IMG/VR virus record: IMGVR_UViG_3300005518_000004
Span: 1 to 64,000 of that record
Source: a virus
Length of the DNA stretch: 64,000 bases
Reading direction: 5' to 3' (one strand)
A program made the translations under genes and the position numbers. This document shows positions 9,193-27,420 of the stretch, piece by piece (positions within the stretch are counted from its first letter, which is position 1; every line of letters begins with the position of its first letter). Below the pieces are notes generated by a model. It was not told the DNA's origin. It searched no databases and was given only the letters and a program-made list of their open reading frames with translations.

Positions 9193-9441
9193 TTATCTTC
9201 GTTCTAACGCGAATACAAGGCGCTTCAGGAGGCTGACGGCATGCCAAGCTGGAACATAGTAACGCCATGCTAGATCCTCCCAATCCCAGTTTGGGTCAGA
9301 GCCAGCTGGCGGTATGCCCGTCTCCACATAGCTGTTTATGGCTTCTATCGTCTTTTCGTGAGCGGCAAACTTTGAAGATGTGCCAGCGCCGAATACCTTG
9401 GCCAAATCATCGAATTCAGGTGGTGTAATTTTTTTAGCCAT
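9193..9441 (-). CDS. hypothetical protein, first gene of the glycan cassette
   Basis: 82 aa, acidic and aromatic in the middle (SDPNWDWEDLAWRYYVPAWH). It is not recognised. A promoter with an overlapping palindromic operator lies immediately upstream; the -10 ends ten bases before the ATG, so the transcript would have almost no leader. Confidence 0.55.
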   Translation of the reverse strand: MAKKITPPEFDDLAKVFGAGTSSKFAAHEKTIEAINSYVETGIPPAGSDPNWDWEDLAWRYYVPAWHAVSLLKRLVFALERR

Positions 9442-9716: not shown

Positions 9717-10142
9717 TCAGTCCTCCTCGCCCCTTTTTTCCTCCCGTCTAGTATTCACCAGCTTCCGCTCCACAAATGCCTTCCCCGTCTTGACTGATTT
9801 GGCAATCACCGCCGCCTTCACCCCGTTCTCCAGCAGCAGCTCCCGGCTGAGAGACTTCCGACCTTCTGCTTGTCTTTCGTAAAACACCCAATCCAAGTAG
9901 CGAATCCCCTTCTGCCTCACCTCGCGCTGCAACTCCCCGAGTGCCACCTTCAGCTCCTCCAGCCGCGTCTGGTTCTGCTGGATGAGCGCCGCCAGTATCT
10001 CGGCTTCCTCAAACAGACCAACCACGTAGAGCGCCTTATCCGGGCTCAGAATTTCCCTGGGGTCGGGCAGCTCGTCGTACTTTATGCTGCTTTTGCCCAG
10101 CGCGTCATGATGCTTCCCTCGGTTTTGATCGGCACCCTGCAT
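9717..10142 (-). CDS. hypothetical phage protein, coiled coil
   Basis: About 141 aa; start uncertain. The ATG at 10142 overlaps the end of the polymerase gene by 61 bp; no ATG exists between the polymerase stop and the conserved region, and a GTG about 120 bases further in is an alternative. A coiled-coil segment (about residues 45-75) is followed by SLSRELLLENGVKAAVIAKS and a charged tail. Similar C-terminal patterns occur in small phage genes next to DNA polymerase; function is unknown. Confidence 0.5.
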   Translation of the reverse strand: MQGADQNRGKHHDALGKSSIKYDELPDPREILSPDKALYVVGLFEEAEILAALIQQNQTRLEELKVALGELQREVRQKGIRYLDWVFYERQAEGRKSLSRELLLENGVKAAVIAKSVKTGKAFVERKLVNTRREEKRGEED

Positions 10143-12412
10143 CTCAATTCCCCGCTTTCGTCCACCAGCGCCCGCTCCATCTCCCATCTGCACACCTCCT
10201 CCACTTCCTCCGCCCACTCCGCGTCTACCTCGATCAGCAGCTCATCATGCACCGGCAGCAGCGCCTCCGCGTATACACCGCTTGCCCTGATCCCCTCCAA
10301 CACTCTCTCGACGCGCGCCATCCCGATCTTCATCACGCCGGCGGCAGCGGCCTGGATGGGGAGATTCCCCGCCTGCCTCAACCCCGCGTACTGAACGCGC
10401 TCCAGCTGACTACGGACTTCTGGTACCAGACGGGTGCGCCCAAACATATCCCACACCATCTCGTACCGCCTAGCCCTCCAATGCTGGAGCTGAAAATACT
10501 CCAGCGCGTCTGGGTATAAATTAAACCACTTCTCGATGAATCGCTCGCACCACTCGATGTCCAGCCAGTCAGGCATGGGCAGGCCAGCAGTCGCATACGT
10601 CACCGCCATCAGGTCGTACAACCCGGAGGCAGTTAGCCCATAACAGTTGCTGACTAATTTGCCTTCGACGGTGAAGCGCCTGCGGGGGCCTGCATTGCGG
10701 ATGTCGTAGACCGGCGTCTCCTGGGAAATCGGCACAGGATCTCCTGCCAAGAGACTCCCTGAGCGGCTAAGCGCCTCGTCGTGCCGAGTGTCAGGCGAAA
10801 CCATGGGTAGTCCCTTACTAGCACTGGGTACAACTGAGTGGCAGTCAGTACTTGATTCTTGTAACGCACCCATTTGTTCCGTCGTGTGTTGCTGCCATTT
10901 TCCGAACGTGTCTCTAGCTCTAGATTCCCTGGCGCGTAGTGGCCGTCGTTGTCCTTTCGGCCAATATCCACTCCCCGATATGTCGGGTGCGGCAGATAGC
11001 GCAACATGTACTTTATGAAGTGCTCCGGGCTCTGAAACCTGCACTCGATCCCCCGACCGCCATAGTTGGGCCAACTCGGGCTCCTTGGGTTGGTGCAGCG
11101 CTGCCACATAGCCGAGTAGCGTTCCTGTAATACAAAGGCTCTCGGATCGCGGTATTTGGTCTGTTGGCACTTGCACTGTCGGCTTTTGCCACTTAGGATG
11201 TTGTCCACCGATACTTCCCTCACTACCTCGCAGGCCGTGCAGGTCATTTTCACATGCCTGTATGCCTTCCTCCCCAAGCGGTAAATCTTTGACGCCACCC
11301 GGAGCGTATCGAACGGGATGCTCTCCACGGCCTGTAACAGCAAGTTCAGATCCCTCGGCCACGGCTTGGGATAGGGGGATCTTTCGACCGTCTTGTACCC
11401 AAACTTTATGGTCCGGGGTCGCGGTGAGTCCTTGGTAGGTGATGACTCGCTTGATGCCTTTGTAGATGACTCCTTCATGGCGGACGAACTCCTCTCCGTC
11501 CCATACCATATCATGACATGACACGTTTTGTATAGGAATCAGTCCATGGTTTGTGAGCACCTGCTGCCCATGCGCGATGCATACTCCAAAGTTAATGTTT
11601 TTGCACGGATTACGCTGGGATATCTTGTCCACCTTATCGGGGTCGTCAATCCCAAACGCCCTCATCGCGGTCTCGGTATGGATGTCGCCTCCCGACTCGA
11701 ACACACGTATCATGGCCCGCTCCCGTGCGCGATCCGCCAGCAGCCGCAGCTCTATCTGGGAATAGTCGATGCTAATGAGCCGGCAGCCGGGGCGCGAGAT
11801 AAAGGCTCGGCGGATCATCTGGCCCAGCTTGGTGCGGGTAGGAATATTTTGCAGGTTGGGAAGTTTACTGGCCAGGCGTCCTGTAGACGTCCTAGTAGTG
11901 GGCAGCTGGGTGTGTATGATGCGCAGATCGCCTTCTGCTTTCGCCAGCAGCGGCAGCGCGTCGGCATAAGTGGACTTCAGCTTGGATGCCTCCCTATACT
12001 CCAGTATCTTTGGGATAACGGGATGATCGCGCTTCAGCTTCTCCAGCTGCTTTTTCCCCGTCGATATCCTGAGGCCGCTGGGGGTGCGCTTCAGATCCTT
12101 CCCCTCTCCCAGCTTCAGCGCCTTGAACAGTAGATCGGCTATCTGCTCGGCGGAGTCTACGTTGATGGCGATGTCGTCCCCTGATTCAGCCAAAAACGCG
12201 TTGAGGTAGGCAGGCGGGATATAGGAGGTGATCTCCAGCTCTAGTTCCGCCATCTTCGCCGCCAAGATCTCGCTAAGCTCCCCCAGCCTCTCCACATCAA
12301 TCGCCACCCCCACCTGCATCATGCGGCAGATCTGGGGGATGGGGAGCAGATCGAGGGCACGCACGTTGGCTAAGTCAGGGTGGCCGGGAAGCTCGATGCC
12401 GCCGAATAGCAT
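10082..12412 (-). CDS. polA: DNA polymerase A family, polymerase domain, interrupted by an intein
   Basis: 776 aa unspliced, 464 aa after removal of a 312-residue intein. Motif A is SIDYSQIEL (D216), motif B KNINFG (residues 271-276) is interrupted after V277 and resumes with CYG at 590-592, and motif C is VHDE (721-724). The thumb region is at the N-terminus, but there is no exonuclease domain; that domain is in the gene ending at 12413, in the same frame with only a TAG between. This is probably the phage replicative polymerase. The intein must be removed to rebuild the nucleotide-binding O-helix. The ATG follows the TAG directly and has only a weak ribosome-binding site, suggesting translational coupling or readthrough. 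Confidence 0.92.
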   Translation of the reverse strand: MLFGGIELPGHPDLANVRALDLLPIPQICRMMQVGVAIDVERLGELSEILAAKMAELELEITSYIPPAYLNAFLAESGDDIAINVDSAEQIADLLFKALKLGEGKDLKRTPSGLRISTGKKQLEKLKRDHPVIPKILEYREASKLKSTYADALPLLAKAEGDLRIIHTQLPTTRTSTGRLASKLPNLQNIPTRTKLGQMIRRAFISRPGCRLISIDYSQIELRLLADRARERAMIRVFESGGDIHTETAMRAFGIDDPDKVDKISQRNPCKNINFGVCIAHGQQVLTNHGLIPIQNVSCHDMVWDGEEFVRHEGVIYKGIKRVITYQGLTATPDHKVWVQDGRKIPLSQAVAEGSELAVTGRGEHPVRYAPGGVKDLPLGEEGIQACENDLHGLRGSEGSIGGQHPKWQKPTVQVPTDQIPRSESLCITGTLLGYVAALHQPKEPELAQLWRSGDRVQVSEPGALHKVHVALSAAPDISGSGYWPKGQRRPLRARESRARDTFGKWQQHTTEQMGALQESSTDCHSVVPSASKGLPMVSPDTRHDEALSRSGSLLAGDPVPISQETPVYDIRNAGPRRRFTVEGKLVSNCYGLTASGLYDLMAVTYATAGLPMPDWLDIEWCERFIEKWFNLYPDALEYFQLQHWRARRYEMVWDMFGRTRLVPEVRSQLERVQYAGLRQAGNLPIQAAAAGVMKIGMARVERVLEGIRASGVYAEALLPVHDELLIEVDAEWAEEVEEVCRWEMERALVDESGELRCRVPIKTEGSIMTRWAKAA
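10646..11581 (-). mobile_element. intein in the motif B (O-helix) of DNA polymerase A
   Basis: Residues 278-589 of the polymerase ORF. Block A begins CIAHGQQVLTNHGLIPI with nucleophile Cys278; block B is GLTATPDHKV with TxxH (332-335); block F is PVYDIRNAGPRRRFTV; block G ends KLVSN with terminal Asn589, followed by Cys590 as the +1 extein residue. Block F usually has His in GPRHRF; here it is Arg, and the penultimate residue is Ser instead of His, so splicing may be slow or need a test. The middle of the in-frame translation (about residues 355-560) matches no intein endonuclease and is the shadow of a different-frame gene. Confidence 0.85.
10654..11514 (-). CDS. homing-endonuclease-like (HNH family) gene nested out of frame in the intein
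   Basis: 286 aa from the ATG at 11514 (another ATG at 11478), in the +1 frame relative to the polymerase. A zinc-ribbon (CTAC at about residue 91, CKC near 113) is followed by YSAMWQRCTNP, NYGGRGIECRF, a VDIGRKDNDGHYAPGNLELET block and NGSNTRRNK. This order matches the GGRGI/IDRxDNxGxYxPxNCRW family of phage HNH-type endonucleases. Its TAG stop lies eight bases before the end of the intein coding region. It presumably makes the mobile element active for homing, independently of protein splicing. The first 40 residues are the out-of-frame reading of the intein N-terminal blocks, so the true start may be later. Confidence 0.7.
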   Translation of the reverse strand: MIWYGTERSSSAMKESSTKASSESSPTKDSPRPRTIKFGYKTVERSPYPKPWPRDLNLLLQAVESIPFDTLRVASKIYRLGRKAYRHVKMTCTACEVVREVSVDNILSGKSRQCKCQQTKYRDPRAFVLQERYSAMWQRCTNPRSPSWPNYGGRGIECRFQSPEHFIKYMLRYLPHPTYRGVDIGRKDNDGHYAPGNLELETRSENGSNTRRNKWVRYKNQVLTATQLYPVLVRDYPWFRLTLGTTRRLAAQGVSWQEILCRFPRRRRSTTSAMQAPAGASPSKAN

Positions 12413-13750
12413 CTACTGATCCCAATCTTCTACCGGCACTTCCACCGCCAGCTGCTGGTCCATCCACGTCCCTACTCGCCCCGTCACGTCGGCATCCCTA
12501 CACCCATACTCCACGACTTCCTCCAGCGGCACATGCCCAATCCCAGGCCTCGGCACCTCCCCGCATACTTCTACCAACTCATCAGTCACCAGCCCCGCCG
12601 CCTCCGCCCGCTCCCAGATGTCATAGTCAGGCTTGTGGGCGTGCTTGATGATCCTGGCGATGTCACGCTCCATCGCCGTACGCCTATAGGTGATCTTGAG
12701 CTTGGTTTTGAGCTGCGTCTCCTGCCGCTCCCGGTTATCGCTCGCCCAGTCCCATGCCCTCGACAGCCACTCCACCATGCGGGCGCGGGAGTAGGGCATC
12801 ACCAGATCCTCCCAGGACTTCATCCGAATGCCGAATAGCCGCCACCCTAGCGCCTTCAAGCCTTGTGGTAGGTTGCCTCGGTGATACGCCTCTTGCATGG
12901 TGTCACGGAACTTGAACCCGGTAATCCCCATTTGCTCTAACCAGTAAAGGTCGTGTGGAGCATTGTGTAGGACGAGCCCTTCATAGTGCTTGATGTAGCC
13001 CTTGAACCATTCAAGCATTTTTGGCTCATTCAGAATCATGAATCCGAAGTTGGGGGATTGGGAAAACTGTAGCGAATAAGCGCCTTCTGCCGTGTTTTCT
13101 GTATCTACCGCCAGCCAACCTGACTGCCCGTATGCTGCTGCGAGCGGCGCATGGGTTAAAAGAGAGTATTGTGCATACCGAATACCATTAGGCGGCACCC
13201 ACTTCTCCCTCCGCCACTGACCCATGCGCTCAAAATCCTGTATGAGCGGTATCATGAGGCTGGTCTGATGCAACCCCGCAGCCGGATGGTAGCTGGGCCA
13301 CACCCACCCCTCCCACGCCCCTAACACGCTTCTGGCATGTTGCTTCTCCAGCCAGAGCGGTATCCCATGGTCCTTGTCTAGCTCAATCTCAGGCACTAGC
13401 TTGCACGCGGTCGCCCCCAATGGCACAATCACCCTAGGCCTGCACCTGGCTACCTCCTCTGCCAGCCAGTACCGCGCACACGCCGACATCTGGGCCTCGG
13501 TAGGCTTGGCATTAGATGCTCCTAACCGACACTTAAGTACGTTGGTGATGCGGACCTGGGACCTATCGAGGCCTGCTAAGGGCAGATACAGCCCATCCAG
13601 CTCCACTCCCGCATCTCCCACAAACACCCGCTGCCTCCTGTCCTCTTCCTTCCCCGGCTTCTCCCCAATCAGTAGGTAGTCACAGGGCTCGGGGCCGGAT
13701 GGGTGGACGAAGCGGCAGTTGGGATCGCAGGCGGAGCAGCGGCTAACCAT
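12413..13750 (-). CDS. uracil-DNA glycosylase / DnaQ-type 3'-5' exonuclease fusion
   Basis: 445 aa from an ATG in a TGATG overlap (a TTG lies one codon earlier). Residues 1-175 are a UDG-superfamily domain: GEKPGKEED (29-37), FVGDAGVEL, and SYHPAA (153-158); Cys5, Cys8, Cys91 and Cys103 could hold the Fe-S cluster of family 4/5 enzymes. Residues 205-445 are a polymerase-type proofreading exonuclease with Exo I DTE (216-218), Exo II NAPHD (263-267) and Exo III YGCRD (415-419), all catalytic acids present. The stop is a TAG directly followed, in the same frame, by the polymerase ATG. A UDG-like domain at the N-terminus of a phage Pol I has precedent in SPO1-like phages. Confidence 0.85.
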   Translation of the reverse strand: MVSRCSACDPNCRFVHPSGPEPCDYLLIGEKPGKEEDRRQRVFVGDAGVELDGLYLPLAGLDRSQVRITNVLKCRLGASNAKPTEAQMSACARYWLAEEVARCRPRVIVPLGATACKLVPEIELDKDHGIPLWLEKQHARSVLGAWEGWVWPSYHPAAGLHQTSLMIPLIQDFERMGQWRREKWVPPNGIRYAQYSLLTHAPLAAAYGQSGWLAVDTENTAEGAYSLQFSQSPNFGFMILNEPKMLEWFKGYIKHYEGLVLHNAPHDLYWLEQMGITGFKFRDTMQEAYHRGNLPQGLKALGWRLFGIRMKSWEDLVMPYSRARMVEWLSRAWDWASDNRERQETQLKTKLKITYRRTAMERDIARIIKHAHKPDYDIWERAEAAGLVTDELVEVCGEVPRPGIGHVPLEEVVEYGCRDADVTGRVGTWMDQQLAVEVPVEDWDQ

Positions 13751-13935
13751 CAATCCCTACTAGCGCGCAATAACTCACAGCCACTGTCATAACCAGCCTG
13801 ATAAACAGAATCCAGCAAATCCACTACTTCCTCTACCATGCTTCTAGTCCATCCACCAGACTTCCGCAAATAAGCTACCAACCTGCCTTCTCTATACACG
13901 CTAAACCCCTCAGGCATCGCTATCAGATCGTACAT
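13750..13935 (-). CDS. hypothetical small protein
   Basis: 61 aa (MYDLIAMPEGFSVYREGRLV at the start), a short beta segment followed by an amphipathic helix. It is not recognised. It overlaps the HTH gene upstream by 26 bp and the UDG gene by one base, and is likely a translated operon member. Confidence 0.5.
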   Translation of the reverse strand: MYDLIAMPEGFSVYREGRLVAYLRKSGGWTRSMVEEVVDLLDSVYQAGYDSGCELLRASRD

Positions 13936-26285: not shown

Positions 26286-26341
26286 TTCTCCCCCACTTAC
26301 GCGCGCGCACGCGCGTTATATACTATTACTAATACTTATAC

Positions 26342-26755
26342 TTACTCCGCACACACCAAGGCTAGTGAACGCAGGTTGTAGAGTGCTTCCGACGCAAGCT
26401 CGGCCTCTACCACACGACGATACTCTGTAGTGGGTTCGCAAATTCCCCATAGAGACGCCAATGCGATTTGCGGTGGTATGACGTTGCCATGCGCCCTTTG
26501 CTCGCGATTGAACAGAATGCAGCCTAAGGTTTCGTGTTCAGCACCGGACGCACATGGGCAATCTGGCGAACCGCAATCGCAGCCTGAACAGCCGTTATCG
26601 TCATACTCCCAGCTGAATACCCAATCGTGATCCCATGCGTAGACTTCGGCCTCAGCCAAACTGCGAGCACACCGCATCCGTCCCTGTTCCCGTGTCTCAC
26701 CTTTGCCGTAACTGTAACCGGCGTTGTCGTAGAAAAACTGCTCATCCTTAGTCAT
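26342..26755 (-). CDS. hypothetical phage protein downstream of a hammerhead ribozyme
   Basis: 137 aa. The start MTKDEQFFYDNAGYSY is a pattern I associate with small proteins of diverse tailed phages; a Cys-rich centre (CSGCDCGSPDCPC, residues 56-68) may bind metal. The ribosome-binding site GGAGG (26767-26763) is also the 3' strand of hammerhead stem I, and predicted self-cleavage falls directly before it. Translation may therefore depend on ribozyme cleavage. Function of the protein is unknown. Confidence 0.65.
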   Translation of the reverse strand: MTKDEQFFYDNAGYSYGKGETREQGRMRCARSLAEAEVYAWDHDWVFSWEYDDNGCSGCDCGSPDCPCASGAEHETLGCILFNREQRAHGNVIPPQIALASLWGICEPTTEYRRVVEAELASEALYNLRSLALVCAE

Positions 26756-26823
26756 CTGCTACCCTCCTACAAGCAGCTATCCACTGCTTGTTTCGTCCGA
26801 TTCCCACGGACTCATCAGGGAGG
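26756..26823 (-). ncRNA. type I hammerhead ribozyme
   Basis: All core elements are in place on the minus strand. Stem I 5' strand CCTCC (26823-26819); core CTGATGA (26818-26812); stem II GTCC/GGAC (26811-26808 with 26798-26795) closing loop GTGGGAATC; GAAA (26794-26791); stem III CAAGCAG/CTGCTTG (26790-26784 with 26776-26770) closing loop TGGATAG; cleavage triplet GTA (26770-26768); stem I 3' strand GGAGG (26767-26763). Three further stem I pairs follow after one mismatch. Cleavage is expected after 26768. It fills the gap between the TAA of the upstream gene (26826-26824) and the start of the downstream one, whose Shine-Dalgarno is stem I. Confidence 0.88.
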
Positions 26824-27213
26824 TTAGGTGCTGTATTCTTCCTCTATCTCCTGACTCACTGCGTCCCAAGCCTTCATCAGGTCAGCATGGTCTGTGTAGT
26901 ATTCCACGTCGACAAACCCCTGTGAGTTTTCGCTGAGGATAGCGCCTGCTTGGGCTCGCAGAAACGTGTCCTCGGCATCTGTCGGCACCACGTCGGACGG
27001 GACGCAATCAATGAGACCAGGCCGAACGCCCCCAGTAGTGCCGACCATCAGCCCATACCATCCTGTTGATTCCGATTCTCCACATTGCTCGTCTAGGTTG
27101 CCGTCCAAGCTGGCATCGTAGACATAAGAGTCGATATAGGTATTGAATTTACCCGGACCATAAGGCCGGATGCCGTCATCTGTCGTTTGCTGGCGTTCCT
27201 GTTGTTTGCTCAT
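26824..27213 (-). CDS. hypothetical acidic protein upstream of the ribozyme
   Basis: 129 aa from the ATG at 27213, preceded by AGGAG at eight bases; the open frame continues to 27297 but without a better signal. The sequence is acidic, with GPGKFNTYIDSYVYDASLDG and STGWYGLMVG. Not recognised. Its TAA abuts the 5' strand of the hammerhead ribozyme. Confidence 0.55.
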   Translation of the reverse strand: MSKQQERQQTTDDGIRPYGPGKFNTYIDSYVYDASLDGNLDEQCGESESTGWYGLMVGTTGGVRPGLIDCVPSDVVPTDAEDTFLRAQAGAILSENSQGFVDVEYYTDHADLMKAWDAVSQEIEEEYST

Positions 27214-27420
27214 CCCTCTATCTCCTATCTGTGCATTGACTAAATTATCCTGGAATTTGCTGCTCATGGGACGAGCATACACCAGGCCAGCGAGCATATC
27301 AATTATTATTATTACCTATATTTGGTTTGTTATCAGTAGTTAGTGCTTTTGAAATTCACACTAGGCTATTTTCATACTTACCCATTGAAGAATCGGCACA
27401 GGTGTGACAAAACGGCACAG

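Follow-up and report, generated by a model that had tools for sequence, protein, structure and literature searches.

The window, which is the whole 64,000-nucleotide stretch analyzed here, comes from a viral record that carries phage genes, among them split DNA polymerase ORFs, an integrase, a methyltransferase and a portal protein. Read directly from the sequence, a complete type I hammerhead is located between two phage genes on the minus strand, at 26823-26763 (Table 1). The interval between the stop codon of the upstream gene and the start codon of the downstream gene consists of a minimal ribozyme and a 7-nucleotide spacer (GTAGCAG, between GGAGG and the ATG at 26755) and nothing more. 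This agrees with an earlier sequence-only reading, which had placed the element between the TAA of one gene and the start region of the next. The same reading had assigned a dual role to GGAGG, as one strand of stem I and as the ribosome binding site seven nucleotides before the ATG, and the sequence bears out this overlap.

Table 1. Coordinates of the hammerhead and of its flanking genes in the window
Feature	Positions	Strand	Basis or remark
Upstream gene, ORF of 157 aa from 27297	26824..27297	-	ORF list, sequence
Stop codon TAA of upstream gene	26826-26824	-	directly adjoins stem I
Stem I 5' strand CCTCC (anti-Shine-Dalgarno), immediately 3' of stop	26819..26823	-	sequence, fold, model alignment
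Conserved core CTGATGA (C3-A9)	26812..26818	-	sequence, model alignment
Stem II, GTCCG-TGGGAAT-CGGAC, 5 bp	26795..26811	-	fold, model alignment
Conserved GAAA, last A paired as 15.1	26791..26794	-	sequence, model alignment
Stem III, ACAAGCAG-TGGATAG-CTGCTTGT, 8-9 bp	26769..26791	-	fold, model alignment
GTA triplet (NUH type)	26770-26768	-	sequence
Predicted cleavage, A17 (26768) / G1.1 (26767)	26767..26768	-	hammerhead consensus position
GGAGG, stem I 3' strand and Shine-Dalgarno sequence (SD) of downstream gene	26763..26767	-	sequence, fold, recurrence
Downstream gene, 137 aa, starting at ATG 26755	26342..26755	-	IMG/VR relatives

The core boxes CTGATGA and GAAA and the GTA triplet are those of a type I hammerhead, and no core position is mutated. 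In the minimum free energy (MFE) fold and in the model alignment, three helices surround the core, with stem I open and stems II and III closed by loops of 7 and 5-7 nucleotides, respectively. Sequence, fold and model thus place every element of the core where the sequence-only reading had seen it. That reading had also identified the stems, but its lengths for two of them need correction: stem II has 5 base pairs rather than 4, and stem III has 8-9 rather than 7 (8 when A15.1-U16.1 is counted, and 9 with a G-U pair). The cut site follows from its position in the hammerhead consensus, which we take to be established, and is a prediction for this RNA.

The MFE fold is exactly the hammerhead structure (-29.3 kcal/mol, z -2.45), and adds an A.G mismatch and three outer pairs beyond stem I that draw on two bases of the TAA. 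In sequence, loop II (TGGGAAT) is similar to the TGAGATT loops that occur in hammerheads of the type found in L012, one of the phage contigs described below. The stem I extension and this likeness are suggestive of a tertiary contact between stem I and loop II. If there is no such contact, cleavage could be slow at physiological magnesium.

The element was compared with chance expectation by using a permissive descriptor that covers all three topologies and requires stems I, II and III of at least 4, 4 and 5 pairs. When the window was shuffled 6,391 times with its dinucleotides preserved, this descriptor matched 10 type I hammerheads. No shuffle (0/6,391) reached the stem lengths of the window element, and GGAG was absent from stem I in every case. 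We also built a covariance model, R1, with the window left out, from type I hammerheads found on other phage contigs (55 members). It scores the element at 41 bits (E = 9.3e-10), and finds no other match in the window or in the whole record of 65,868 bases. The stems of R1 covary, with 269 changes on both sides compared with 66 in shuffles, although this signal is partly circular because the members were picked by a descriptor that demands pairing.

The sequence-only reading had proposed an Rfam hammerhead search, and that search did not recover the element: no Rfam family reaches its gathering score. A search by E value likewise stays below the cut-offs. The highest scores below threshold belong to Hammerhead_3 (22.5 bits, cut-off 48.5) and RAGATH-1 (18.9 bits, cut-off 56.3). 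The RF00163 model is silent on the record, but it is equally silent on all control genomes and is uninformative here. A threshold is no biological definition, and the Rfam result says little either way. The element is real, and chance is a negligible explanation for it.

The likelier start of the upstream gene is the ATG at 27213 (129 aa), which has AGGAG 8 nucleotides ahead of it. Searches of Pfam, PHROG, phage and IMG/VR sequences found no relatives of the upstream protein. The downstream protein has no Pfam or PHROG match, and has nine IMG/VR relatives with 38-55% identity that share a conserved EYRRVVEAELA motif; a repeat search with the alignment of this family returned the same nine loci. 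Phage records yielded no match to either gene, to the 14-kb region, or to the flanks of two other phage loci that carry similar ribozymes (L047 and L190, below). Because the upstream gene is without relatives, we infer a two-gene operon from the layout alone; no convincing promoter or terminator occurs between the two genes. This layout supports the earlier proposal that cleavage would split a two-gene mRNA.

Among the nine relatives of the downstream gene, only one is directly preceded by a hammerhead and eight have none, and this scarcity counts against the explanation that we favor below. The one hammerhead, at L009:904-957 (plus strand), is of type II, so hammerheads precede the downstream gene in two different topologies. 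Like the window element, it lies directly before the downstream protein (here 38% identical) and next to the stop codon of the previous gene. Unlike the window element, it is circularly permuted, with stem II open. Because the SD of L009 is outside the ribozyme, the two loci can share only processing, and not SD release.

Two scans of viral contigs, one demanding TAGGAGG downstream and the other without this demand, provided more than 150 stretches, which are labelled by L-numbers. By the descriptor, these loci contain roughly 216-238 distinct type I hammerheads. In most of them the SD lies outside the ribozyme, 9-30 nucleotides past the cut.

In L021 (2292-8607), L033, L044, L012, L011 and L041, type I hammerheads form arrays that range from about 5 members to a dozen, with a dozen or so in L021. 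Within these arrays, one hammerhead is found between nearly every pair of small genes, and most are followed by a strong SD. A weak R1 match in L005 was rejected, as it sits in a poorly paired stretch.

Recurrence of an SD within stem I was studied with the pattern CTCC-CTGANGAG...CGAAAC...TH-GGAG, which leaves stem II, stem III and the start codon unconstrained. In viral contigs, this pattern is found in 13 contigs, all of which are also R1 matches (weakest E = 0.00012), and in most of which an ATG lies 10-14 nucleotides past the predicted cut. Bacterial and archaeal contigs totalling 257 Gb also contain 13 matches to the pattern; none of these is a complete hammerhead by the descriptor, and at most one is a marginal R1 match (E = 0.006). 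An ORF that begins with ATG 8-19 nucleotides past the cut accompanies 11 of the 14 collected type I hammerheads whose stem I contains GGAG, and 10 of the 220 collected ones whose stem I does not (Fisher P = 5e-11). The association persists when hammerheads are collapsed by contig (6/9 versus 9/121, P = 6e-5). In L051, L052 and L057, stem I contains GGAG and a qualifying ATG is absent.

The SD-in-stem-I arrangement therefore recurs non-randomly in other phages. It occurs in about nine backgrounds: the window, L046, the L047 group (six related contigs from one metagenome), L050, L053, L054, L121, L190 and L202. Outside the L047 group, these backgrounds share few or no proteins in the stretches compared, and their flanking genes differ. 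The register of the strand that follows the cut also varies, and includes GGAGG, TGGAG (L121) and AGGAGG (L190). L190 was the single phage found in a scan for a CTCCT/AGGAG stem I, and it retains AGGAGG in both of its ribozymes, even where the 5' strand pairs imperfectly. Either convergence or an old, highly diverged ancestry could account for the recurrence.

Two of the loci depart from the usual structure. The hammerhead at L202:5948-6018 (minus strand) has its SD in stem I, an adjoining TAA and an ATG soon after GGAGG, and its junction of core box and stem II is irregular, so it is possibly degenerate. The sequence at L201:4350-4422 (minus strand) is hammerhead-like, with a CCTCC/GGAGG stem I before an ATG (R1 E 0.09), an almost absent stem III and extra hairpins.

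The position of the upstream stop codon is also constrained. In 60 of 216 hammerheads, an in-frame stop ends at offset 0 (the first base of stem I) or at offset 1, compared with about 2 stop-codon ends at each of the other offsets. A further group of upstream stops falls inside stem I or at the TGA of the core. An A is common at position -1 of stem I even where there is no stop codon, and a conserved base 5' of stem I that serves a structural need might thus mimic stops. This idea was rejected on the in-frame counts: stops that end at stem I are in frame with an ORF in 32 of 41 cases at offset 0 and in 28 of 41 at offset 1. Because these stops are mostly in frame, the register with the gene is real. 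In type I hammerheads from L010 to L190, the ribozyme seems to begin at the upstream stop codon.

Hammerheads located between genes of prophages and phages were described by Perreault et al. (2011, PMC3088659), who suggested that they divide long transcripts into mRNAs the length of single genes. Several tandem phage hammerheads from that study cleave in vitro, and for Agrobacterium cleavage was also seen upon expression in E. coli (PMC3088659). The window element resembles these RNAs in its intergenic position within a phage operon. The main text of the study is silent on Shine-Dalgarno sequences, stop codons and ribosomes, whereas in the window element the SD forms part of stem I and the stop adjoins it. 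Thus, the presence of hammerheads between phage genes is already known, and the SD as stem I, together with the abutting stop, extends that knowledge, as does the stop-codon register in the larger collection, which is likewise absent from the main text of that paper. Another natural precedent is HHphage of haloviruses HF1 and HF2, a hammerhead located 13 nucleotides before a start codon, where the 5' end of the mRNA lies at most 3 nucleotides from the cut (PMC3088659). In contrast to the window element, HHphage belongs to an archaeal virus, has a variant core, precedes the first gene of its transcript and has no described SD role. In the searchable literature, which lacks most subscription papers and the de la Pena and Jimenez surveys (2010-2011), we found no natural hammerhead in which stem I comprises the downstream SD and the upstream stop abuts.

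The closest parallels in mechanism are engineered ribozymes that sequester an SD. As in the window element, the SD and an anti-SD pair in a stem and cleavage frees the SD. The engineered devices are synthetic and mostly ligand-gated, whereas the window element is natural and carries no aptamer. Wieland and Hartig are said to have engineered an SD-sequestering hammerhead ribozyme in 2008. According to its citation in a study of twister ribozymes (PMC5052635), the design was first built with hammerheads by Ogawa and Maeda in 2008. The engineered twister designs P1-SD and P3-SD, in which a ribozyme stem pairs the SD with an anti-SD, gave expression that was 5- to about 100-fold higher when the ribozyme was active (PMC5052635).

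Folding predictions are consistent with SD occlusion before cleavage and release after it. The SD occupies a ribozyme stem across the cleavage site, 7 nucleotides from the ATG, and its predicted probability of being unpaired is 0.02-0.34 in uncleaved RNA and about 0.77 in cleaved RNA, varying with the length of folded context. Opening the SD in uncleaved RNA is predicted to cost 1.2-4.5 kcal/mol, again depending on context. In two of three context lengths, masking the region that would lie under a ribosome on the TAA opens the SD. Sequestration by the 5-base-pair stem is therefore predicted to be only moderate. The folding does favor the earlier suggestion that cleavage could free the ribosome binding site, as the SD is predicted to open upon cutting.

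We favor, with a probability of roughly 0.55, an interpretation in which the element is a constitutive type I hammerhead that punctuates the mRNA, whose cutting also exposes the ribosome binding site and whose activity interacts with ribosomes. The transcript would be a minus-strand phage operon of two genes or more with the ribozyme inside it, and cutting would occur constitutively between 26768 and 26767. For the upstream gene, this would yield a message that retains its stop codon and has a new 3' end, capped by a hairpin and bearing a cyclic phosphate. For the downstream gene, it would yield a short-leader mRNA that opens at its own SD (5'-HO-GGAGG-N7-AUG). GGAGG would be locked in stem I ahead of the cut, and the cut would expose it because what remains of stem I is a 5-base-pair intermolecular duplex that should fall apart. 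Because the stop adjoins stem I, a ribosome terminating at the TAA should cover CCUCC and the core, and would keep the ribozyme unfolded. Perhaps, then, the presence of a ribosome completing the upstream gene favors re-initiation, and its absence favors cutting. Cleavage in vivo, dissociation of the duplex, the effect on translation and the interplay with ribosomes are all parts of this picture that we infer; constitutive processing with SD exposure, in which ribosomes can delay folding, is preferred because of the folding predictions.

More tentatively, natural phages might use hammerheads as SD-releasing elements in which a ribosome at the abutting stop chooses between cleavage and re-initiation, and such elements might have originated repeatedly in unrelated phages. 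If so, they would be the natural counterpart of engineered SD-sequestering ribozymes, and the arrangement would offer a natural parallel to a well-used design of synthetic biology. A ribozyme bounded by the previous stop and the next SD would link self-cleavage to translation, and the role of the hammerhead becomes testable.

The strongest competing explanation, which we consider somewhat unlikely, is that an active ribozyme splits the mRNA and that its overlap with the SD reflects genome compaction, with downstream translation unaffected by the cut. The translation of the downstream gene could be indifferent either because ribosomes terminating at the TAA already open stem I or because a 5-base-pair stem is too weak to matter. 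The stop adjoins stem I here and in many phages, and the predicted opening cost in uncleaved RNA, 1.2-4.5 kcal/mol depending on context, also fits this view. Moreover, processing alone seems sufficient because the SD lies beyond stem I in most phage type I hammerheads. However, compaction alone does not require GGAGG immediately after the cut and an ATG within range in about nine backgrounds. The retention of AGGAGG in both L190 ribozymes despite imperfect pairing also argues against compaction, although a constraint on the SD alone fits that observation too.

It is also conceivable, but improbable, that cutting lowers downstream expression by creating a very short leader whose end is degraded or poorly bound by ribosomes. 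Cleavage directly at the SD would leave 12 nucleotides to the AUG and no standby site, and the function of bacterial and phage hammerheads is still called an open question (PMC6155905). Nevertheless, expression was full in the engineered P3 design of the twister ribozyme, where the 5' UTR is trimmed by cleavage (PMC5052635), and a good SD with good spacing has been retained repeatedly, which argues that the cleaved message is translated.

Control by a ligand or protein, with the ribozyme as the expression platform of a riboswitch, is very unlikely. Ribozyme switches with an SD in a stem do exist as engineered devices, but hairpin loops as short as those of the window element leave no room for a known aptamer, and no additional domain is present between the stop and the start. 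Gating by a protein or by ribosomes is conceivable. Because no ligand domain is visible, the "testable switch" of the sequence-only reading finds no support as a regulated switch. A chance resemblance or an inactive relic, for which the sub-threshold Rfam scores might speak, can be set aside given the shuffles, the E value from the independent model and the unmutated core.

Other features of the window were noted. Adjacent ORFs at 10082-12412 and 12413-13753 (both within 10082-13753, minus strand) match one DNA polymerase PHROG, and could represent a split gene, a frameshift or a sequencing error. SD motifs are sparse in this phage; they occur at 14 of 69 gene starts versus 27 of 204 internal ATGs, a contrast that is too weak to interpret given the crude assignment of starts. 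At 9441, 9591, 41843 and other positions, a palindrome-like AGGTTAAAATTAAACCT or TATAAT lies 8-15 nucleotides before an ATG, suggesting near-leaderless transcripts or an operator. An alternating CG/TG tract (CGCGCGTGCGCGCGCG) occupies 26300-26320, just past the stop codon of the downstream gene.
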